Below are positions 7,465 through 58,057 of a stretch of 64,000 nt of DNA, one piece after another; the first letter of the stretch is position 1, and the number at the start of each line of letters is the position of its first letter. Location of the stretch: assembly GCF_000152905.1 (NCBI RefSeq), contig NZ_AAMY01000012.1, positions 1 to 64,000 of the forward strand, given 5' to 3'. Origin of the DNA: Nitrobacter sp. Nb-311A. Its GTDB lineage: Bacteria > Pseudomonadota > Alphaproteobacteria > Rhizobiales > Xanthobacteraceae. Made by a program: the position numbers and the translations under genes. The notes below the pieces were generated by a model, which did not search any database, was not told the DNA's origin, and saw only the letters and a list, made by a program, of their open reading frames with translations.

Positions 7465-7938
7465 ATGCTCGTCGAGCACGGCGAGGGGCATCTCATCATT
7501 ACGCTGCGCACCATCGTGGAATCATCCGGTAACGAACGCGCGCTGACGGCGGCCGGAATTCAGGGCGTGAGTGATCTCGTCCTGGCGCATGCGTCTTGGT
7601 CTGACCACGGACTGGCCTGGATCGAAGCGTTCTACAATATCGATTTGATCGAGCTCGCAAAGATTGCGAAGGCAAACCGCAAGGCGGTCCCGAAGCGTGA
7701 GGCTATGGCGGCGATGCTGTATGAGCGTTTGGCGCTGATCTTTGATCCGCCGCCGAAGCCAGGAAACATCGCCCATTCAAGCACACTAGAACGACGCCAC
7801 GGTACGCTCATCTGCCGGCTACCTGATCAGGCGTCGGACTTTTCACCACGCGGCGGGAACGCCCACGCCCCATGCGTCTCCTTCTCTCGACACTCACGAG
7901 CGTACATCAACAGCGCATCACACGTCGCTGGTTGTTGA
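7465..7938 (+). CDS. hypothetical protein, paralogue of the 14.0-kb gene
   Basis: 157 aa. Residues 5-75 (EGHLIITLRTIVESSGNERALT, then WIEAFYNIDLIEL) align without large gaps with the product at 14044-14454 (EGHVNLLIVMIIESADNENALV, WLEAFDHLPPLMTIL). I recall similar short proteins from Bradyrhizobium, without a function. The C-terminal 50 residues after ALIFDPP look unlike the family and may be read-through after a lost stop. It is probably soluble and helical. Confidence 0.5.
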   Translation: MLVEHGEGHLIITLRTIVESSGNERALTAAGIQGVSDLVLAHASWSDHGLAWIEAFYNIDLIELAKIAKANRKAVPKREAMAAMLYERLALIFDPPPKPGNIAHSSTLERRHGTLICRLPDQASDFSPRGGNAHAPCVSFSRHSRAYINSASHVAGC

Positions 7939-8574
7939 TGGATCTGGCCAATCGCTCGGCCGGCTCAGCCTGCTCACGAAAACTCTGGATCATGTGCCAC
8001 CTCATTTTAGGCACAAGTTGAGACTAAATGCCTTCGTTCCTCGAAGCATCGGCTCAGGCTTAATGGCGCGTAAATCCGAAAGGGTGGCCGACCCTCCGCA
8101 CTGAAAAGGGAGGGTCGAGGCTAGCTGCGGTTGGCCCGCGCAGTGCGCGGTCGCGGTCCGGGCGAGTTGGCTCAAGCGTCGATCTCTTTCGCCGCCTCGG
8201 CCTTTGTGGCTCTTTTCAGAAGATCGCTTCGTTCGGCGGCGGCACGGCTTCTGCCTTTTGCCGCGTCTCTTGAGGCGCTTTTCGAGCGACTTGGTTTGTT
8301 TAACCCTGCGGCGTGTGCAGGTTCTTGTTACCGCCCAACTCGGGCTTGTGTATCGGCTCGTCTGGTCGGCCTGGAACTCCAGGAGACCGCGTGTGACGTG
8401 CACTGCGTCCTTCAGCTCTCCTCTTCCGCAATTCTTCGCACGCGTGCGCGTTCCCAAAATCACGCTCAACTAGTCAACGAGCTTCAGAGCGTCCTCGCCC
8501 GAGGGGGTTTCCACCTCCGGGTGACTTCCGCCACGAGATCTTTCGTACCCTTTTGCTCCATCTGTCCTCCTGGT
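7939..8574. other. region of weak coding signal, possible small basic peptide genes
   Basis: Long frames exist on both strands at 8002-8598 but none resembles a known family. On the minus strand, about 8188-8310, one frame gives a credible basic helical tail (SRDAAKGRSRAAAERSD, then KAEAAKEIDA and a stop), but it has no start codon. A 25-codon frame at 8484-8561 (minus) has a good AGGAGG-type ribosome site just after the blh stop. The region may be a decayed tail of the blh operon. Confidence 0.3.
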
Positions 8575-51625: not shown

Positions 51626-52214
51626 TCATGCCAGTGCCTTCTTGAGAACTGGCGCGAGCCCTAGCGGCGTGATCGAGGTGCCTAGTGCAATGGGACCGGA
51701 ACAGAGATCGATGCTCCGCAAAGCCTTCGAGGATCGCCACGCTGGCGCTGAGAAGGCGGGCAGCACTCTGATTTTAGACGGGGGCATGAAATGGTCCCCC
51801 GCGCAAATCTCGCCTGAAGATGCCGAGCTGCTGGAAACTCGCAAGTTCGGCGTGGTCGGGCTCTGCCGACTGTTTCAGGTGCCGCCGCCGATCGTGCAGG
51901 CATATGAAAACAATACTTTTACAAACGCCGCTCAGGCGGGCTTGTGGTTCGCCACCTTCTGCCTTGCGCCCTGGGCGCGGAAGATCGAGGCGGAATTTGT
52001 CCGTTCGGTATTCCCAACCGGCGGGCCTTACGAGCTGGAGCTGGACCTGTCCGGCTTCCTTCGCGGCGATCCCGAAACGCGTTGGAACGCCCACAAGATC
52101 GCGATCGATAGCGGCGTGCTCGACCCTGACGAGGTTCGCCAGATTGAGGGCTGGAATCCCCGGCCTGCTGGCCAGAAGCCAGTACCCGCGAGCGATGGAG
52201 CGCAGGGCCAATGA
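51624..52214 (+). pseudogene. phage portal protein (HK97 type), C-terminal fragment
   Basis: The frame opens NHASAFLRTGASPSGVIEVP and continues KAGSTLILDGGMKWSPAQIS, RKFGVVGLCRLFQVPPPIV, WFATFCLAPWARKIEAEF, LDLSGFLRGDPETRWNAH. These are late segments of HK97-family portal proteins (about 400 aa); the first half is missing. The portal forms the DNA-entry ring, normally encoded next to the terminase, which lies 47 kb upstream in this window. Confidence 0.8.
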
Positions 52215-52267
52215 CACGAGAATTCGCGAAGTCGGCGCCACCACGGAAACGGCTGTGAACTAGATCG

Positions 52268-52462
52268 ATGGCTAATCGTCCTACGCCCATTACTCAGGCC
52301 AATGCGACCCGCTACTTTAAGGCGGCGGCTACGGCTGGCTATGGGCGCACTCGTTTAGTGATGCACCCTGACGGTAGGGTGGAAGTCATCGCAGAAATCG
52401 CAGAGACGACAGAAGCGTTTGAAGGTCCGCTGGAGGCGTGGAGGCGTAATGGTCAGGGCTAG
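52268..52462 (+). CDS. small hypothetical protein before integrase
   Basis: 64 aa (ITQANATRYFKAAATAGYGR, TRLVMHPDGRVEVIAEIAET). A small beta-rich protein of a kind encoded just before phage-type integrases in Rhizobiales; possibly an excisionase-like or DNA-binding helper. It overlaps the integrase start by 14 bases. Confidence 0.55.
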   Translation: MANRPTPITQANATRYFKAAATAGYGRTRLVMHPDGRVEVIAEIAETTEAFEGPLEAWRRNGQG

Positions 52463-53278
52463 GCTTCAGGGCATCAACACGGTCCGCAAGCGCCTCGCGG
52501 ACGGATCCGTGCGACTCTATTACTACCACCGCGCCACGGGCCTTCCGCTGAGCGGCAAGCCCGGCTCGCCCGAATTTCTCCGCGACTATGGCTCGGCTGA
52601 AAAGACGATGCTCGATCGCCACTCTGGCATCTTCAACGGGCTGGTGCGCGACTACACATTGTCGCCCGAGTTCGAGAAGCTGAGAGACAGCACGCAGCAC
52701 GAATATAGGCGCATGCTCACCAAGGCCGAACAGAAGTTCGGCAACATGCCGCTCGCCGCGCTTGAAGATCCCCGCGTGCGTCAAGATTTCATGACCTGGC
52801 GCGCCACTGTGGCCAAGGCTTCCGGCGACCGCGAAGCCGACAATCGCCTGAGCGTCGTGTCTGCGATGCTCACCTGGGGCATAAGGAACGGCAGGTTTTC
52901 AGCAACCACATTGCCGGATTCCGACGCCTGCACAGCGCCGATCGCTCTGACCTGATCTGGTTGCCCGAGCACATTCACGCCTTCATGGCCGTTGCGCCTG
53001 TCGAGCTTCAGCGCGCACTTATCCTCGCCCTTCACACCGGCCAGCGGCAAGGCGATCTGTTGCGTTTGTCATGGGGCAACTATGACGGCTCGTTAATTTC
53101 TATTCGGCAGGGCAAGACCGGACGAAAGGTCGAAATCCCCTGTACCAGAGCCCTGAAAAAGATGCTGGACGGCCTAGACCGCAACACGGCGGTGGTTCTC
53201 GCCACCAAGACGAAACGGCCGTAGACGCCTCGCTACTTCAAGGCGCAATGGGAGGCGGCGAATTTCATCGAATTTTAG
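52449..53278 (+). pseudogene. phage integrase (tyrosine recombinase), broken
   Basis: From ATG 52449: an N-terminal arm and SAM-like domain (RLADGSVRLYYYHRATGLPL, LRDSTQHEYRRMLTKAEQKF). A frameshift near 52900 is followed by the catalytic domain start (LALHTGQRQGDLLRLSWGNY with the first catalytic arginine), then a TAG stop at 53222-53224. The HxxR and tyrosine motifs are absent. The enzyme cannot be active. Confidence 0.8.
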
Positions 53279-53435: not shown

Positions 53436-54200
53436 TCAAGCGACGGCCTCGTCGGGAAGCTTCAATATGGTCAGGATTTCCTCGTTCGGCAGAAGAAACG
53501 ATTGCTCTTCGACTTCCAGGTCGTCGCCTCCTCTAACGTCAAACCATGCGTCGGCCGGCATTTTTCGGGGAAAAGCCTGTTCAGCGGCGCCTTTGAAGAG
53601 CATCTCGGCTGCGAATGTTTGGGGATCCAATTGCTTGGCCGGCACCCACCAAGGCTGGATCATCTTTGCCCTCTCGAACCAGCGACGCTTTTCCTTGTTG
53701 TGACACACGAGGACTATTGGAAATCGGTTCAGAACGGTCATCTTGAAGAGCGTTGCCGTCAGGCTGGCTTCGAACTCGCCCGCCAACTCGCGCGCAGCCG
53801 CCAAAGTCGGACGCTTCATTTTCCGAAGACGGGGTGTGACCATAAAATTCGGTAGGATCAGATCAGAAGCGAAGCCGTCAGCTTGACGTTCTGGATCCAA
53901 GGGACCGTTGGCGAAGTTGCAGACGTCGCTCTTGCCGCAGAAGAGAATCCGGCCGCGATGATGGTGCCAGTGGCCGATTTCGTGGGCTAGGGAAAAGCGC
54001 CGACGTTTGGGGCTGCTGCGGCTGTTGATGGAAATGACAGCCCTTCGACGGGTGCCCACAATGGTGGCCTCGCAACTGTCCATGGGACGGTAATTGACGA
54101 CTGCACCTTTGGTCCAGGCGATCGCATCCAGGTCGATCTCCTTTGGTTCGGATATGCCGAGTTCCGTTAGCATCCGCTCCGCGGGAGTAGCGGCGTTCAT
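53436..54200 (-). CDS. ImmA/IrrE-family metallopeptidase
   Basis: 254 aa; ATG 54200 overlaps the upstream stop in ATGA (54197-54200). The gluzincin motif is H73-E-I-G-H77 (SLAHEIGHWHHHRG) with the third ligand E104 in PERQADGFASDL. The C-terminal 110 residues form a separate domain with a conserved tryptophan-rich part (FERAKMIQPWWVPAKQLDPQ). ImmA/IrrE peptidases cleave repressors on a stress or DNA-damage signal; CapP does this for CBASS. Last gene of the sigma-like operon next to CBASS, so I infer it cuts the middle protein. Confidence 0.85.
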   Translation of the reverse strand: MNAATPAERMLTELGISEPKEIDLDAIAWTKGAVVNYRPMDSCEATIVGTRRRAVISINSRSSPKRRRFSLAHEIGHWHHHRGRILFCGKSDVCNFANGPLDPERQADGFASDLILPNFMVTPRLRKMKRPTLAAARELAGEFEASLTATLFKMTVLNRFPIVLVCHNKEKRRWFERAKMIQPWWVPAKQLDPQTFAAEMLFKGAAEQAFPRKMPADAWFDVRGGDDLEVEEQSFLLPNEEILTILKLPDEAVA

Positions 54201-54628
54201 TCCTCGTCATTCCCTTCGTTCTCGAGCGCCTCGAGCTGAGCCAAATCGTCCAGGGCGCCTTCTTCGTCTTTCTCCGAAAGATTTTTACCCTTGCGAGCGG
54301 CCATCATCATGCCCGCGACGTTTTCTCCGGCTCCGGATCGCATGGCAGCCAGCTTCCCGCGAACTCGCTCCCTGTCGATGCGAGAAACGGTTGAGGTTTG
54401 AGTATTCCGGTCCGCGACTGCCGCCTTAGCTTGCTCTAGGCGCAGCTTGGCACAGGACTTTTTCGCGTCAACGAAGACCGCGTCCATCTCGGCGATTACC
54501 TTCGCCTCATCGAGACTTTCCGAGGACAGTTCTTCTCGCAGCTGCGCCGGCGACATGTTGAGGATGTCCTCGTCGAGTGCATCAGATATCCGCTGCAACT
54601 GCTCATGCCCCGTTACCTTCCTGCTCAT
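54197..54628 (-). CDS. small charged protein, candidate anti-sigma factor
   Basis: 143 aa, coupled on both sides by ATGA overlaps (54625-54628 and 54197-54200). Helical and acidic at the N-terminus (RISDALDEDILNMSPAQLRE, ELSSESLDEAKVIAEMDAVF), basic in the centre (VSRIDRERVRGKLAAMRSGA) and very acidic at the end. No membrane helix, no metal-binding motif, no recognised family. Its place between a sigma-like protein and an ImmA/IrrE peptidase suggests the cleavable inhibitor; this is inference. Confidence 0.65.
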   Translation of the reverse strand: MSRKVTGHEQLQRISDALDEDILNMSPAQLREELSSESLDEAKVIAEMDAVFVDAKKSCAKLRLEQAKAAVADRNTQTSTVSRIDRERVRGKLAAMRSGAGENVAGMMMAARKGKNLSEKDEEGALDDLAQLEALENEGNDEE

Positions 54629-55218
54629 GATGGAAGTCCCTCCGGGAATTTCTTCTTCACCGCCTTCTTGATCCGCCTCATTGCGTAATCGTACGCCGCC
54701 TGGTCAATTCCGACTTCATCGCGCAATTCCTTTCCCTTTTTGCCGTCCGCCAGCGCCATGATCACGAATTGCGCCTCGTCGTCGCCATCCAGACACTCAT
54801 AAATCGCCGCTACGGTGTCGGTATCCTCCTGCTCGATGAGGGCCGCCTCCGGATTGTGCTGGTTGGTCAAAACCTGCAGATCCGACAAGTCCCCGCTGCG
54901 GCCATCCTTCGCGATCGACCGCTCCCGCTTCAACTGGACCCGGCGATGCGAGGCCAGACTGCGCATTGTCTGGGCTAGGAATGCAATCAGCGACACGTCG
55001 ATCGGACACCGCCGCTTCCCAGTCAGTGCCCGGCAGACCGCCTCATGATAGAGATCACCTTGCCGGAAGTCGGTGCCCGCACATCGGCGCCGCTCAATGA
55101 GCCAGAGCCGGATCTTTTCGTCCGCAGAAAACGAGGCGATCTGTTCCAACACCTCCTCAGGAGCGAGGTGCTTTGTGTCTTGCGGCTCACTTTCGCCGAG
55201 AACGTCGGTGTCGCTCAT
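54625..55218 (-). CDS. sigma-70-family RNA polymerase sigma factor-like protein
   Basis: 197 aa; ATG 55218 with TGAGGAC upstream. A region 2-like part at about residues 50-100 (DLYHEAVCRALTGKRRCPID, LIAFLAQTMRSLASHRRVQL) and a region 4-like helix-turn-helix near residues 145-190 (GDDEAQFVIMALADGKKGKE, VGIDQAAYDYAMRRIKKAV). The layout fits small alternative sigma factors of the ECF type. First gene of a coupled three-gene operon, divergent from the CBASS genes with a 167-base shared upstream region. Confidence 0.75.
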   Translation of the reverse strand: MSDTDVLGESEPQDTKHLAPEEVLEQIASFSADEKIRLWLIERRRCAGTDFRQGDLYHEAVCRALTGKRRCPIDVSLIAFLAQTMRSLASHRRVQLKRERSIAKDGRSGDLSDLQVLTNQHNPEAALIEQEDTDTVAAIYECLDGDDEAQFVIMALADGKKGKELRDEVGIDQAAYDYAMRRIKKAVKKKFPEGLPS

Positions 55219-55241
55219 GCGTCCTCAGCGCTGCTGCCCGT

Positions 55242-55319
55242 GTATGCCGATCTCAATCTCGGATTCGGACGATCTGGAAAAAAATTAGGAGTCCGAAATC
55301 CCCGCCCAGCTCGGCATAC
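55242..55319. promoter_or_regulatory. nested inverted repeats in the sigma/CBASS divergent promoter
   Basis: The outer arms GTATGCCGA (55242-55250) and TCGGCATAC (55311-55319) are perfect; the inner arms GGATTCGGAC (55261-55270) and GTCCGAAATCC (55291-55301) pair with one extra base. Both share one centre near 55280, inside an A-rich stretch. This could be an operator pair bound by a dimeric regulator or an RNA hairpin in the CBASS leader. Confidence 0.6.
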
Positions 55320-55385
55320 GTGTGTGAGAGCGCCTTAACGAGGCTAGGTGGCTGGCGAAATATAGCAGAAAGCGATGCTAAATCA

Positions 55386-56578
55386 ATGAATTACGTAGCA
55401 GAACGTGCGCAGTTGCGCCAATCCCAGCTTATGTTGAAGAGGCTTGTCAGCACCTAGAGCCGTCCGCATCCCAGCAGGACCTCGCCAAACAGCGCTATGA
55501 GGGCGTCGGAGGCTGGCTTGCCCGCTCGGAGGACTCGCTGCTCGCTTCGATCGAGATCCGGCTGCAGGGCTCGGTCGCCATCGGTACGACCGTCAAGCCG
55601 CTAGGAGCCAACGAGCACGACGTCGACCTGGTCGCGCATGTTCCCGATCTAGATGTCGCCGTTTCGCCGGCTCAACTCAAGCACCGGATCGGCGATCGCC
55701 TCCGCAGCAACGGATATTACGCCCCCCTGCTGAAGGAGATGCCGCGGTGCTGGCGGCTCGATTACGCCAATGAGTTTCACCTGGACATCACCCCGTCGAT
55801 TCCGAATCCGGAGTGCCGTTTCGGAGGCGAACTCGTTCCGGACAAGACGCTAAAGACATGGAAGGCCTCGAACTCCATGGGTTACCGGGCCAAGTTCAAC
55901 CGGCGTGCCGCGCTTCTGCCACGGATACGGCCCGCTCTCGGCATGACATTCGACAGCATGCGGAAGGTCGATGTCGAACCCTACCCCGAAAACAAGCGCC
56001 TGAAAGGCATCCTTCTGCGCATCGTGCAGATCGCAAAGCGCCACCGCGATCTGCTCTTCATCGATGACAACGATGGCGTGGCGCCGCTCTCAATCATCAT
56101 CACCACGCTGGCCTCGCGGACCTATGAGATCTGCGCCACTAACTTCGAATACGATCACGAGCTCGACCTGATCGTCGACGTGCTGCGCCGGATGCCGAGC
56201 ATGCTGGAGACCGGCACGTTTCAGGGACGCGCGGTGTGGTACCTCTGGAACCAGACCACCTCCGGCGAGAACTTCTGCGAAAAGTGGAACAAGTACCCCG
56301 AGCGGGCTATCGCGTTCTTCGAATGGCACCGCAGGATCCTGGCCGACGTCGAGCTGCTCGCCCGCGCGCAGGGGCTCGACCAGGTGCGGCGGCGGCTGGG
56401 TGACGTCTTCGGCATGGGCCCGGCCAACAAGGCGATGGACTCTCTGACCGAACGCGTGGACACCGCTCGCGCCACGGGCCGGCTGTCCGTCACCAAATCC
56501 GCCGGCCTGATCATGGGCACGACGGCAGCCAGCGCGACGCCGGTACCCGCGAACACGTTCTTCGGCGACAGGCGGTGA
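55386..56578 (+). pseudogene. CBASS CD-NTase (cyclic oligonucleotide synthase), frameshift near start
   Basis: The ATG at 55386 starts RAQLRQSQLMLKRLVST, then hits TAG at 55455-55457; in the next frame the family continues at once as LEPSASQQDLAKQRYEGVGG. A one-base deletion there best explains this. Active-site motifs are intact: LQGSVAIGT and HDVDLV (GS and DxD) and EFHLDITPSIP (third aspartate). From ATG 55739 only a 279-aa protein lacking GS and DxD could be made. CD-NTases make cyclic nucleotides on phage infection. Confidence 0.85.
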
Positions 56579-56582
56579 TTCC

Positions 56583-57077
56583 GTGCGGCTCGGGCGACCG
56601 AAAGCGCTGACGATGGCGCAGCAATACGTCAATCTGCGCGGCAATCCCCTGAGCGCGGGAGATGGCCCTTTGCGGGCCAGCAGCTTCACCTGGATCTACG
56701 AGACCTCGCCGTCGCCGCTGAGCCGCGACTACCAGATCCGGATCGAAATGGCTTGCGGCCTCCCTCCAAGGGTCTTCGTCGATGACCCGGATATCGAGGT
56801 GCTCGCCTGCGGTCGCGACCTTCCGCACGTCTACCGCAATCCGACCCGGCTTTGCCTCCATCTGCCGCGCACGCGGGAATGGCAGCCGTGGATGAGGCTC
56901 GACCAGACCGTCGTGCCCTGGACGTCGCTGTGGCTGTTTTATTTTGAGGACTGGCTGGAATCGGGGGAATGGAAGGGCGGAGGCATGCATCCAGCCGACG
57001 CCCCGCGGACCCGGCAAAGCCGGCGTCGTTTGGGATTGCGGCAGCCCGTCGAATGCGACCTGGGGAGCGAAGGGTGA
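56583..57077 (+). CDS. CBASS stand-alone E2-like protein
   Basis: GTG 56583, four bases after the CD-NTase stop; 164 aa. The candidate catalytic cysteine is C91 in the segment TRLCLHLPRTREW, followed by VVPWTSLWLFYFEDWLESGE and WKGGGMHP. This pattern is that of the E2-only proteins of short type II CBASS, which process the CD-NTase C-terminus in a ubiquitin-like way without E1 or JAB partners. It ends in a GTGA overlap with the next gene. Confidence 0.75.
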   Translation: MRLGRPKALTMAQQYVNLRGNPLSAGDGPLRASSFTWIYETSPSPLSRDYQIRIEMACGLPPRVFVDDPDIEVLACGRDLPHVYRNPTRLCLHLPRTREWQPWMRLDQTVVPWTSLWLFYFEDWLESGEWKGGGMHPADAPRTRQSRRRLGLRQPVECDLGSEG

Positions 57078-58057
57078 ACACCGAGGCTCCCACCTACAAA
57101 ATTCTGTCGATTGACGGTGGCGGAATCCGCGGCGTCTTTCCAGCGGCCTTCCTCGCCAAGCTGGAAGATCACCTCGACGTGCCGATCGGGTCCTACTTCG
57201 ACCTGATCGCCGGAACGTCGACAGGCGGAATCATCGCCATCGGTCTGGGGCTGGGATTGTCCGCCAAAGACATCCTGCGGCTCTACCAAGAGCAGGGACC
57301 GTCAATCTTTGATCAGCAGCACGGCGTATTCGGCAATTTCGTGCGACAGCGATTGCGCGGGGCGATGCACTGGGTGGGATCGAAATACTCCTCGCAGCCG
57401 CTGCACGACGCGCTCGTCGGCATTCTCGGAGACCGCCGACTCGGTGAAAGTCGGACGCGCCTGGTCGTCCCCGCATGGCACCCCATGCTCGAGCGCGTCT
57501 ACATCTACAAGACGGCCCATCACCCCAGGCTTGAGACCGATTACCGTGTGCGGGCGCTCGATGCAGCGATGGCCACTGCTGCCGCGCCGACGTTTCTGAA
57601 GCCTCACATGACAAACGACGAAATCGAACTGGTCGACGGCGGCGTCTGGGCCAACAATCCGATCGGCGTGGCCACGATCGAAGCGGTCGGGATGCTGAAC
57701 TGGCCCGCGAACAGGCTGAAGATCCTCAGTGTCGGCACCATCAATGATGTCAAAGCCCCTCCGCGATGGAAGGGAAAGCTTCCGATGGCGTCATCCGTCG
57801 CGCGCCTTTTCATGGCCGGGCAATCTCACAGCGCGCTGGGTACGGCGAAAATCGTCACCGGCGACGGCCACGACCATCGCGCGATCTGGCGTGTCGACCA
57901 AACCGCGCCGGCGGGTCGCTACACGATGGACGACGCTGCGCGCATCGCAGAAATGAAGAACCGTGGTTTTACCGAAGCGCGGGAGCAACTGCCCGAGCTG
58001 CGCCGCCACTTTTTCGACCGCGAGGCCGAGCGGTTCGTTCCCTGCCACTCACTCTGA
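57074..58057 (+). CDS. capV: CBASS effector: CapV-type patatin phospholipase
   Basis: GTG 57074 overlaps the E2 stop by 4 bases; 327 aa. A patatin domain with the oxyanion loop DGGGIRG (residues 14-20), nucleophile S49 in GTSTGG, and the catalytic aspartate in VDGGVWANNP. CapV enzymes are switched on by the cyclic nucleotide from the CD-NTase and degrade membrane phospholipids, killing the infected cell. All catalytic residues are present. The family-typical C-terminal part (YTMDDAARIAEMKNRGFTEA) is intact. Confidence 0.9.
   Translation: MNTEAPTYKILSIDGGGIRGVFPAAFLAKLEDHLDVPIGSYFDLIAGTSTGGIIAIGLGLGLSAKDILRLYQEQGPSIFDQQHGVFGNFVRQRLRGAMHWVGSKYSSQPLHDALVGILGDRRLGESRTRLVVPAWHPMLERVYIYKTAHHPRLETDYRVRALDAAMATAAAPTFLKPHMTNDEIELVDGGVWANNPIGVATIEAVGMLNWPANRLKILSVGTINDVKAPPRWKGKLPMASSVARLFMAGQSHSALGTAKIVTGDGHDHRAIWRVDQTAPAGRYTMDDAARIAEMKNRGFTEAREQLPELRRHFFDREAERFVPCHSL

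Follow-up and report, generated by a model that had tools for sequence, protein, structure and literature searches.

The window analyzed here, a 64,000-nucleotide stretch of DNA from Nitrobacter sp. Nb-311A, carries on its minus strand three genes (hereafter the trio) encoding a sigma factor of the extracytoplasmic function (ECF) type, a 143-amino-acid (aa) protein and a CapP-like ImmA/IrrE metallopeptidase, which stand divergent from an operon of the cyclic oligonucleotide-based antiphage signaling system (CBASS). The trio probably acts as a sigma switch that is released by proteolysis and serves the adjacent immune operon. Computed support for this reading comes from a conserved module, a sigma fold, paired promoters that co-vary, a link between a helix of the sigma and the −10 box, a modular 143-aa protein and an invariant Ala-Ala-Arg (AAR) motif within it.

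Organization of the locus

The genes and motifs of the trio and of the divergent operon are as follows.

53436..54200, minus strand: CapP-like ImmA/IrrE metallopeptidase, 254 aa (Pfam, PADLOC and profile matches)
53970..53984, minus strand: codons of the zinc-binding HEIGH motif (peptidase residues 73-77)
54197..54628, minus strand: helical protein of 143 aa, a proposed anti-sigma factor with an N-terminal domain at about residues 7-65, peptidase-specific C-terminal segment at about residues 105-135
54293..54301, minus strand: codons of A110-A111-R112, invariant; a putative cut before R112 would expose a latent degron
54625..55218, minus strand: ECF-type sigma factor, 197 aa; sigma2 at residues 20-105, sigma4 at residues 123-190
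55386..56578, plus strand: CD-NTase (CBASS cyclase) gene, start assigned by homology with locus L003, frame broken
56583..57077, plus strand: E2-like protein of type II-short CBASS (PADLOC)
56969..58057, plus strand: patatin-like CBASS phospholipase (listed open reading frame (ORF); homologous part from about residue 38)

The original prediction, made from the sequence alone, described this layout correctly: the three minus-strand genes lie at the coordinates it gave and are chained by 4-base overlaps, the HEIGH motif is present in the peptidase, and a 167-base gap separates the trio from the divergent CBASS ATG (55386). Its description of the 143-aa protein as lacking a known domain also holds, there being no Pfam or NCBIfam match, and the plus-strand genes, taken by it as CBASS, comprise a CD-NTase, an E2 and a patatin phospholipase and thus form a type II-short CBASS (PADLOC E-values of 1.3e-103 for the cyclase, 7.9e-52 for the E2 and 3.4e-99 for the phospholipase). 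No E1 was found by PADLOC among the ten window ORFs scanned.

Distribution of the trio

A peptidase-profile search of a collection of 84,980 species returned 379 relatives, the best 80 of which were fetched. The full trio is present in 79 of these 80 loci, the remaining one (L108) ending at a contig edge, so the arrangement is more than chance; the sigma match is weak (1e-4) in L111, where the sigma frame is poorly called. Record titles of the peptidase loci name Alpha-, Beta- and Gammaproteobacteria, Desulfuromonadaceae, Geobacter and Terriglobia. Relatives of the sigma occur in 38 of 72,556 plasmid records, and among 20 fetched plasmid loci the full trio is found in 14 (L002-L004, L006, L008-L012, L014-L016, L019, and L021), the sigma with a small protein and no peptidase in four (L007, L017, L018, and L020), and the sigma followed by a helicase in two (L005 and L013). 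At E ≤ 1e-14 the sigma is present in 20 of 296 genomes of the window's family and in none of the eight other listed genomes of the genus; the trio is therefore an accessory module of patchy occurrence. A sigma-profile search of the class matched 50 of 385 genomes at 1e-4, with four alone below 1e-12, and nearly all of these matches are apparently generic ECF sigmas. No relative of the sigma was found in viral contigs with a single-protein query, which reaches close relatives only, and neither the sigma nor the 143-aa protein matched phage records. The copy in L061 (Bradyrhizobium japonicum in8p8) looks decayed, its sigma and peptidase frames being interrupted.

The comparisons below use a set of 98 loci, namely 79 selected by the peptidase, 18 plasmid loci and the window itself; L108 and the plasmid loci L005 and L013 lie outside it.

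The sigma-like protein

The first gene of the trio, which had been called sigma-factor-like, is assigned to the ECF-type sigma factors by both fold and profile. An AlphaFold model based on 75 sequences (predicted local distance difference test score, pLDDT, 86) contains two helical domains, and its first 13 PDB matches in Foldseek are all sigma factors, including Bacillus subtilis SigH, Escherichia coli sigmaE, and SigH and SigL of Mycobacterium tuberculosis. The sigma2 domain superposes on RpoE (5uxx) with Z 7.0 and 3.0 Å over 81 residues and the sigma4 domain on BldN with Z 6.7 and 1.8 Å over 58 residues; in a comparison of the sequence profile with the PDB, ECF sigmas were matched (6jcy, 1.1e-5), and TIGR02937 matches 27 of the 75 aligned sigma relatives at E ≤ 0.001. 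Several values count against the assignment: TIGR02937 matches the window sigma at 3.2e-6 and 26.9 bits, below its cut-off of 42.9; only the first Foldseek match passes E 0.001, with whole-chain TM-scores of 0.2-0.3; and domain-fit Z values below 8 could be given by a common helical arrangement alone. As judged from model and profile together, the product of 54625-55218 is an ECF-type sigma with sigma2 and sigma4 domains only and a linker between them. No residue is strictly invariant among the 75 sequences.

The region-2.2 stretch DLLQEA is conserved among the 90 sigmas compared (D or E at position 55 in 83/90, L56 in 85/90, E59 in 79/90, and A60 in 85/90). In known sigma factors the equivalent of this stretch binds core RNA polymerase, and a sigma reduced to a DNA-binding repressor would not be expected to retain it. 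This conservation bears on an alternative in which the trio is a split CapH repressor, the sigma-like protein serving as the DNA-binding half and the 143-aa protein as the partner or oligomerizing half, with repression lifted when the peptidase cuts. The CapP-like character of the peptidase speaks for such a repressor and the conserved core-binding region against it; given also the promoter and profile evidence that follows, we regard it as improbable.

Paired promoters

The gap between the two operons of the window contains two predicted promoters of one type, facing outward.

55241..55249, minus strand: −10 box CGGCATACA of the sigma-operon promoter, 22 nt from the sigma ATG
55264..55271, minus strand: −35 box CGTCCGAA of the sigma-operon promoter
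55290..55297, plus strand: −35 box AGTCCGAA of the CBASS-operon promoter
55312..55320, plus strand: −10 box CGGCATACG of the CBASS-operon promoter

Both contain GTCCGAA-N14-CGGCATA (55243-55270 on the minus strand and 55291-55318 on the plus strand), and these two are the only exact copies in the 4.1-Mb genome, with three more at one mismatch; at up to two mismatches the genome holds 48 matches vs. 35 for the reversed control. The consensus across loci is TGTCCGA-N13/14-SSGCATAG, the −35 box being TGTCCGA[A/G], and of 171 sites, 169 have the −10 box SSGCATAG at a downstream offset of 21 or 22 bases, six offsets having been equal at the outset. With a model trained on these loci and scores required to exceed the 99% limit from shuffled sequence, 86 of the 98 loci have a site directed toward the sigma gene and 88 have one directed toward the divergent gene; sites occur in both directions in 80 loci and in at least one direction in 94, and none was found in L061 (where the trio genes are broken), L062, L087, and L111. 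In 64 of the 86 loci, the distance from the end of the −10 box to the start codon of the sigma is 12-32 nt, as should be expected of a promoter. Sites of at least 19 bits that lie more than 260 bp from a sigma start are rare, with only eight in 2.9 million positions of locus sequence on both strands, and four of these eight are in L065, L078, and L093, where the sigma start codon is probably misplaced. In a hold-out test on 20 further loci the sigma-side site was found in 14; the strength of this result is lessened by the six misses (L005, L013, L161, L170, L175, and L176) and by kinship, as L165-L167 are near-identical and L023 is close to the training locus L057.

Close spacing of the paired sites in most loci resembles an operator, which speaks for a repressor assembled from the sigma-like and 143-aa proteins. 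The gap between the two sites, or arms, nevertheless ranges from 6 to 49 bp and reaches 177-179 bp in five related loci with a Bub operon (L115, L118, L119, L121, and L122; hosts include Roseivivax, Marivita, and Pseudooceanicola), in each of which either promoter copy lies near its own gene. Lone sites occur as well: in L172 and L160 a strong site is present on the sigma side and no counterpart on the divergent side, and L017 is probably similar. A single dyad operator for a dimer was rejected on account of the varying arm distance and the lone sites, which independent promoters fit. Among the 80 loci with two promoters, the gaps from −35 box to −35 box cluster near 12, 22, and 32 bp, a hint of helical phasing; a period of about 10.5 scores high in these gaps but is not statistically distinct from its neighbors, periods from 9.5 to 13 scoring nearly equally.

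Covariation of promoters and sigma factor

Arm was compared with arm in 64 loci that have both sites; the screening was for exact duplicates only, so that the set still contains related loci, and it includes L020, one arm of which is misplaced. Within a locus, 14.4 of 17 box letters are common to both arms, vs. 11.7 (standard deviation 0.18) after re-pairing, a value reached in none of 10000 re-pairings, and their spacing is equal in 56 of the 64 loci vs. 35 on re-pairing; the spacers between the boxes are only 36% identical from arm to arm. Since the arms co-vary in both box letters and spacing, one factor per locus probably reads both.

The identity of that factor was approached through 90 of the 98 loci, those in which a promoter site and a peptidase are present and the sigma frame is intact. 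Sigma residue 91, which sits in the helix expected to read the −10 box, follows base 2 of that box: D or E accompanies C in 26 of 28 loci, H accompanies G in 15 of 15, and N, A or S accompanies A in 27 of 33. With the three bases taken together, residue 91 ranks first of 434 sigma and peptidase columns. Nine box positions are variable: six belong to the −10 box and lean to sigma2.3-2.4, with ratios of 1.00-1.35, and the remaining three, in the −35 box, lean to sigma4 (ratios 0.72-0.98). This covariation between bases and residues over 90 loci supports the sigma as the factor that would read both boxes. The signal at residue 91 is weaker under other treatments, which must be set against it: for C vs. 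A alone it is third among 428 columns, two from the peptidase scoring higher; chemical grouping of the residues puts it second of the sigma columns when all three bases are considered and beyond the first eight for C vs. A; and a tree-based test of independent pairs yielded four pairs and no significance. Because peptidase columns precede it for C vs. A, shared ancestry explains part of the signal.

The peptidase and the 143-aa protein

The peptidase matches Pfam M78 at 6.7e-17, the PADLOC capP model at 1.7e-63 over nearly its full length and the solved CapP structure 7t5t at 3e-8 over residues 58-173, and H73, E74, H77 and E104 are invariant among 15 peptidases. From these matches it is classed as CapP-like, with an ImmA/IrrE fold, HExxH and a further conserved Glu. 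No Lon protease with a SAVED domain was found, M78 being the only Pfam match above cut-off and the PADLOC matches being confined to capP and other ImmA/IrrE-type models.

The 143-aa protein is modeled as helical (pLDDT 79), with residues 101-120 weakly predicted. No Pfam family matches it at E ≤ 1, hence no helix-turn-helix (HTH) of the XRE type was found there. The PADLOC capH model gives weak matches at E ≤ 0.001 in 26 of 77 of these proteins, which speaks for the 143-aa protein as part of a divided CapH; this candidacy was rejected when hhalign comparison of 20 CapH-type proteins, a shallow profile, with the 143-aa family gave a probability of 0.4% and no shared HTH.

The preferred reading takes the 143-aa protein to be the anti-sigma factor, and the make-up of the protein across loci selected by the sigma is consistent with this. 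Where a peptidase is present, the full protein with its C-terminal segment is found in 28 of 28 loci (14 plasmid and 14 family loci, some of them nearly identical); where the peptidase is missing and a copy is detectable, the C-terminal segment is absent in eight of nine, leaving the N-terminal domain only (Fisher's exact test for 28/0 vs. 1/8, 2e-7, with relatedness ignored). That domain stands alone beside the sigma in L017, L018, L160, and L020 and is fused to other sequence in L173 (M23), L013 (SNF2-type helicase), L161 (similar, running off the contig) and L172 (other sequence); no copy was detected in L005, L024, L025, and L174. The 143-aa protein may accordingly be described as an anti-sigma-type domain with a peptidase-specific tail, and an N-terminal domain that occurs alone or on varied partners would be behaving as an anti-sigma domain that changes its sensor. 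Some observations run counter to this: Foldseek returned no structural match for the model, and none to known anti-sigma domains; L007 is an exception, with a tail-like segment (AFK) and no detected peptidase; the N-terminal-domain matches in L020 and L161 are weak; and in L161 and L173 the locus ends soon after the gene, so the absence of the peptidase is uncertain.

The fusion loci have features of their own. The product of L173:604-1788, beside a member of the sigma family, joins an anti-sigma-like N-terminal domain to a hydrophobic stretch at residues 83-101 and a peptidase domain of the M23 type, and it probably resembles a membrane-spanning anti-sigma. In L005 (8992-12742), L013 (6866-10602) and L161 the sigma family lies directly upstream of a SNF2-type helicase, identified by Pfam in L005 and L013, and in L013 and L161 the start of the long protein after the sigma weakly matches the anti-sigma domain.

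Within the tail, A110, A111 and R112 are the sole residues that are fully invariant in all 77 members, and in 72 of 77 the motif follows an L or an M. If the protein were cut before R112, its new C-terminus would read LAA in 42 of 77, MAA in 30 and another -AA in five. LAA- and MAA-type ends resemble the ssrA and RseA degrons for ClpXP. A C-terminal di-alanine makes AntA a target of ClpXP (PMC8999054, in part), ClpXP is thought to finish the anti-sigma CalpT (PMC11417357, in part), and the loop of DdrO cut by PprI needs an arginine (PMC10904395, in part). A degron exposed by a cut in the tail would explain the release of a sigma bound at the other end of the protein. Plasmid members include exceptions to the AAR rule, with AFR in L008 and L015 and AFK in L007.

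A further alternative is that the peptidase acts on the sigma or as an off-switch, the 143-aa protein protecting or presenting the sigma and cleavage ending the response. Any pairing among the three products is possible, as their genes are co-encoded and mostly overlap; the invariant AAR and the peptidase-linked tail, however, belong to the 143-aa protein, and the sigma has no strictly invariant residue, so that this alternative is considered very unlikely.

Divergent operons and neighboring features

The loci had been picked by peptidase or sigma similarity, independently of defense genes. Genes on the divergent side within 7 kb were grouped by similarity, a group requiring presence in at least three loci or similarity to 13 query proteins, and representatives were named by Pfam and PADLOC. 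Known or candidate immune genes stand on the divergent strand in 53 of the 98 loci: CBASS in 17, Bub (multiubiquitin or ThiF/E1) in 22, metallo-beta-lactamase (MBL)-like in 6 (PADLOC RTasMBL, 1.7e-14 to 3.4e-5, one via similarity only), Pycsar in 3, TRIP13 in 2, S8 peptidase in 2 and patatin in 1. The trio thus does not occur mostly apart from defense genes; the original prediction had named the opposite outcome as one that would refute its proposal. In another 26 loci small DUF2188, DUF3892 and 93-aa genes alone were found there. These cassettes, whose 93-aa protein begins MIYAINYDL in some, are seen near the same promoter in L006, L012, L098, L120 and others and are possible unrecognized immune or stress genes.

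The set of divergent operons overlaps that reported for CapK+CapS, which accompanies a set including CBASS, Bub and MBL operons (PMC13373217, in part). Two points reduce the weight of the immune association: grouping left the divergent side without a family name in 19 of the 98 loci, and Bub operons are not proven to be anti-phage (PMC13373217, in part). The proposal of a sigma-based CBASS switch is supported by the sigma fold and profile, the paired promoters and the make-up of the 143-aa protein. The switch would not be specific to CBASS, as Bub, MBL-like and Pycsar operons are faced as well; in the window itself the cyclase gene is broken.

An alternative in which the trio runs mobile-element or plasmid functions, and immune neighbors merely share variable regions with it, would suit the many plasmid copies and the patchy occurrence given above. 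It is at odds with a divergent-side promoter in 88 of the 98 loci that co-varies with its partner arm and with divergent genes enriched in a few immune families, and we give it next to no weight.

The broken state of the cyclase, which the original prediction had overlooked, is seen in alignment with L003, relative to which the CD-NTase gene of the window is 7 nt shorter near 55430. Read from ATG 55386, the frame is open for 23 codons and then meets a stop. In the cyclase frame no ATG, GTG or TTG is available upstream of 55739, a position that already falls within the nucleotidyltransferase domain matched by Pfam (residues 59-136 when the frame is read from 55382). The CBASS of the window is therefore probably disabled, whereas its three control genes are open frames. 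In Bradyrhizobium loci L054-L056 the cyclase likewise appears spread over several short ORFs.

The module of the window adjoins prophage or mobile-element remnants at 51642-53224, in the form of a fragmentary HK97-type portal protein and two ORFs that together represent one integrase. The genome also encodes, away from this locus, a canonical pair of CapH and CapP (L132, G000:C35 near 7927-8247) divergent from an AAA ATPase that may be TRIP13-like, and further strong matches to the capH model lie at G000:C37:112127, C27:13656 and C1:2098. HTH-based and sigma-based controllers hence coexist in the genome of Nitrobacter sp. Nb-311A.

Proposed mechanism

We infer sigma-anti-sigma binding, cleavage, a degron and a single-stranded DNA (ssDNA) trigger, arranged as follows. 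At rest, the N-terminal helical domain of the 143-aa protein would act as an anti-sigma and hold the ECF sigma. The CapP-like peptidase, by analogy with CapP and PprI/IrrE, would be activated by ssDNA arising from damage or phage replication and would then cut the anti-sigma at the invariant Ala-Ala-Arg of its flexible C-terminal tail, the likeliest position being just before the Arg. The new LAA or MAA C-terminus would lead ClpXP to remove the remaining anti-sigma, and the freed sigma, together with core RNA polymerase, would fire the two matched divergent promoters, one driving the sigma's own operon (for amplification and resetting) and the other the immune operon. In its widest form the proposal holds that an ssDNA-triggered cut unmasks an ssrA-like degron, that ClpXP destroys the anti-sigma, that a sigma dedicated to one locus activates the operon encoding it along with a CBASS, Bub, MBL-like or Pycsar operon, and that this sigma family serves as a platform on which the anti-sigma domain has been joined anew to different sensors, such as helicases and a probably membrane-spanning M23 protein; this whole is offered tentatively, its chance of being right being put a little short of even.

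Abortive-infection systems must stay silent until they are needed. If the proposal is true, a sigma switch would amplify its own output in a burst without relying on housekeeping promoters, and proteolytic anti-sigma signaling would be joined to damage sensing of the ImmA/IrrE type. The promoter consensus, the candidate recognition residue (sigma 91) and the candidate cut site make the switch directly testable, and the promoter could be used as a tag for unrecognized immune operons, e.g., the DUF2188/DUF3892/93-aa cassettes.

Comparison with known systems

Classical ECF sigma/anti-sigma pairs (RseA and RsiW) share one operon, an autoregulated promoter, varied sensor fusions and a cut that exposes a ClpXP degron. 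The trio differs from them in that its presumed signal and protease are cytoplasmic, with no membrane cascade. It resembles CapH+CapP in having a CapP-like zinc peptidase beside CBASS and Bub operons and a small, co-encoded probable substrate; unlike CapH+CapP, it has an ECF sigma and a separate 143-aa protein without an HTH, and its logic would be activation rather than lifted repression. The damage-responsive controller families CapW, CapH+CapP and CapK+CapS are all repressors (PMC13373217, in part), and a WYL-domain activator under genotoxic stress is reported (PMC10693628, in part). CapK+CapS and CapW, like the trio, are controllers dedicated to neighboring immune operons, and the operon types overlap with those of the trio (CBASS, Bub, and MBL); they are repressors released by phosphorylation or ssDNA binding, for which the consulted part of the source describes no sigma output (PMC13373217).

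PprI/IrrE-DdrO of Deinococcus combines an ssDNA-activated peptidase of the ImmA/IrrE type with an arginine-requiring cut in a loop, both of which are proposed for the trio, and differs in that its substrate DdrO is an HTH repressor (PMC10904395, in part). In the CalpL/CalpT/CalpS system of type III CRISPR, a protease cuts an anti-sigma and frees an ECF sigma in an immune response (PMC11417357, in part). The proposed cut of an anti-sigma that would free an ECF sigma, with ClpXP thought to finish the task, is shared with that system. CalpL is a Lon-SAVED protease activated by cyclic tetra-adenylate (cA4; PMC11417357, in part) whereas the protease of the trio is of the ImmA/IrrE type, and the trio, unlike CalpL/CalpT/CalpS, faces CBASS, Bub, MBL-like and Pycsar operons via dedicated promoters.

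The view that a sigma-based switch of this kind had not been described is borne out among the listed matches of open-literature searches, which did not cover the primary CapH+CapP paper; no sigma variant appears in the consulted parts of PMC13373217, PMC12839542, PMC11417357, PMC8999054, PMC8103513, and PMC9122588. Beyond the original prediction, the promoter code, the candidate cut site and the reach beyond CBASS are new. Because an HTH repressor and a Lon-SAVED protease were looked for and not found, the trio is a member of neither the CapH+CapP nor the CalpL/CalpT/CalpS system, sharing its protease with the former and its logic with the latter.

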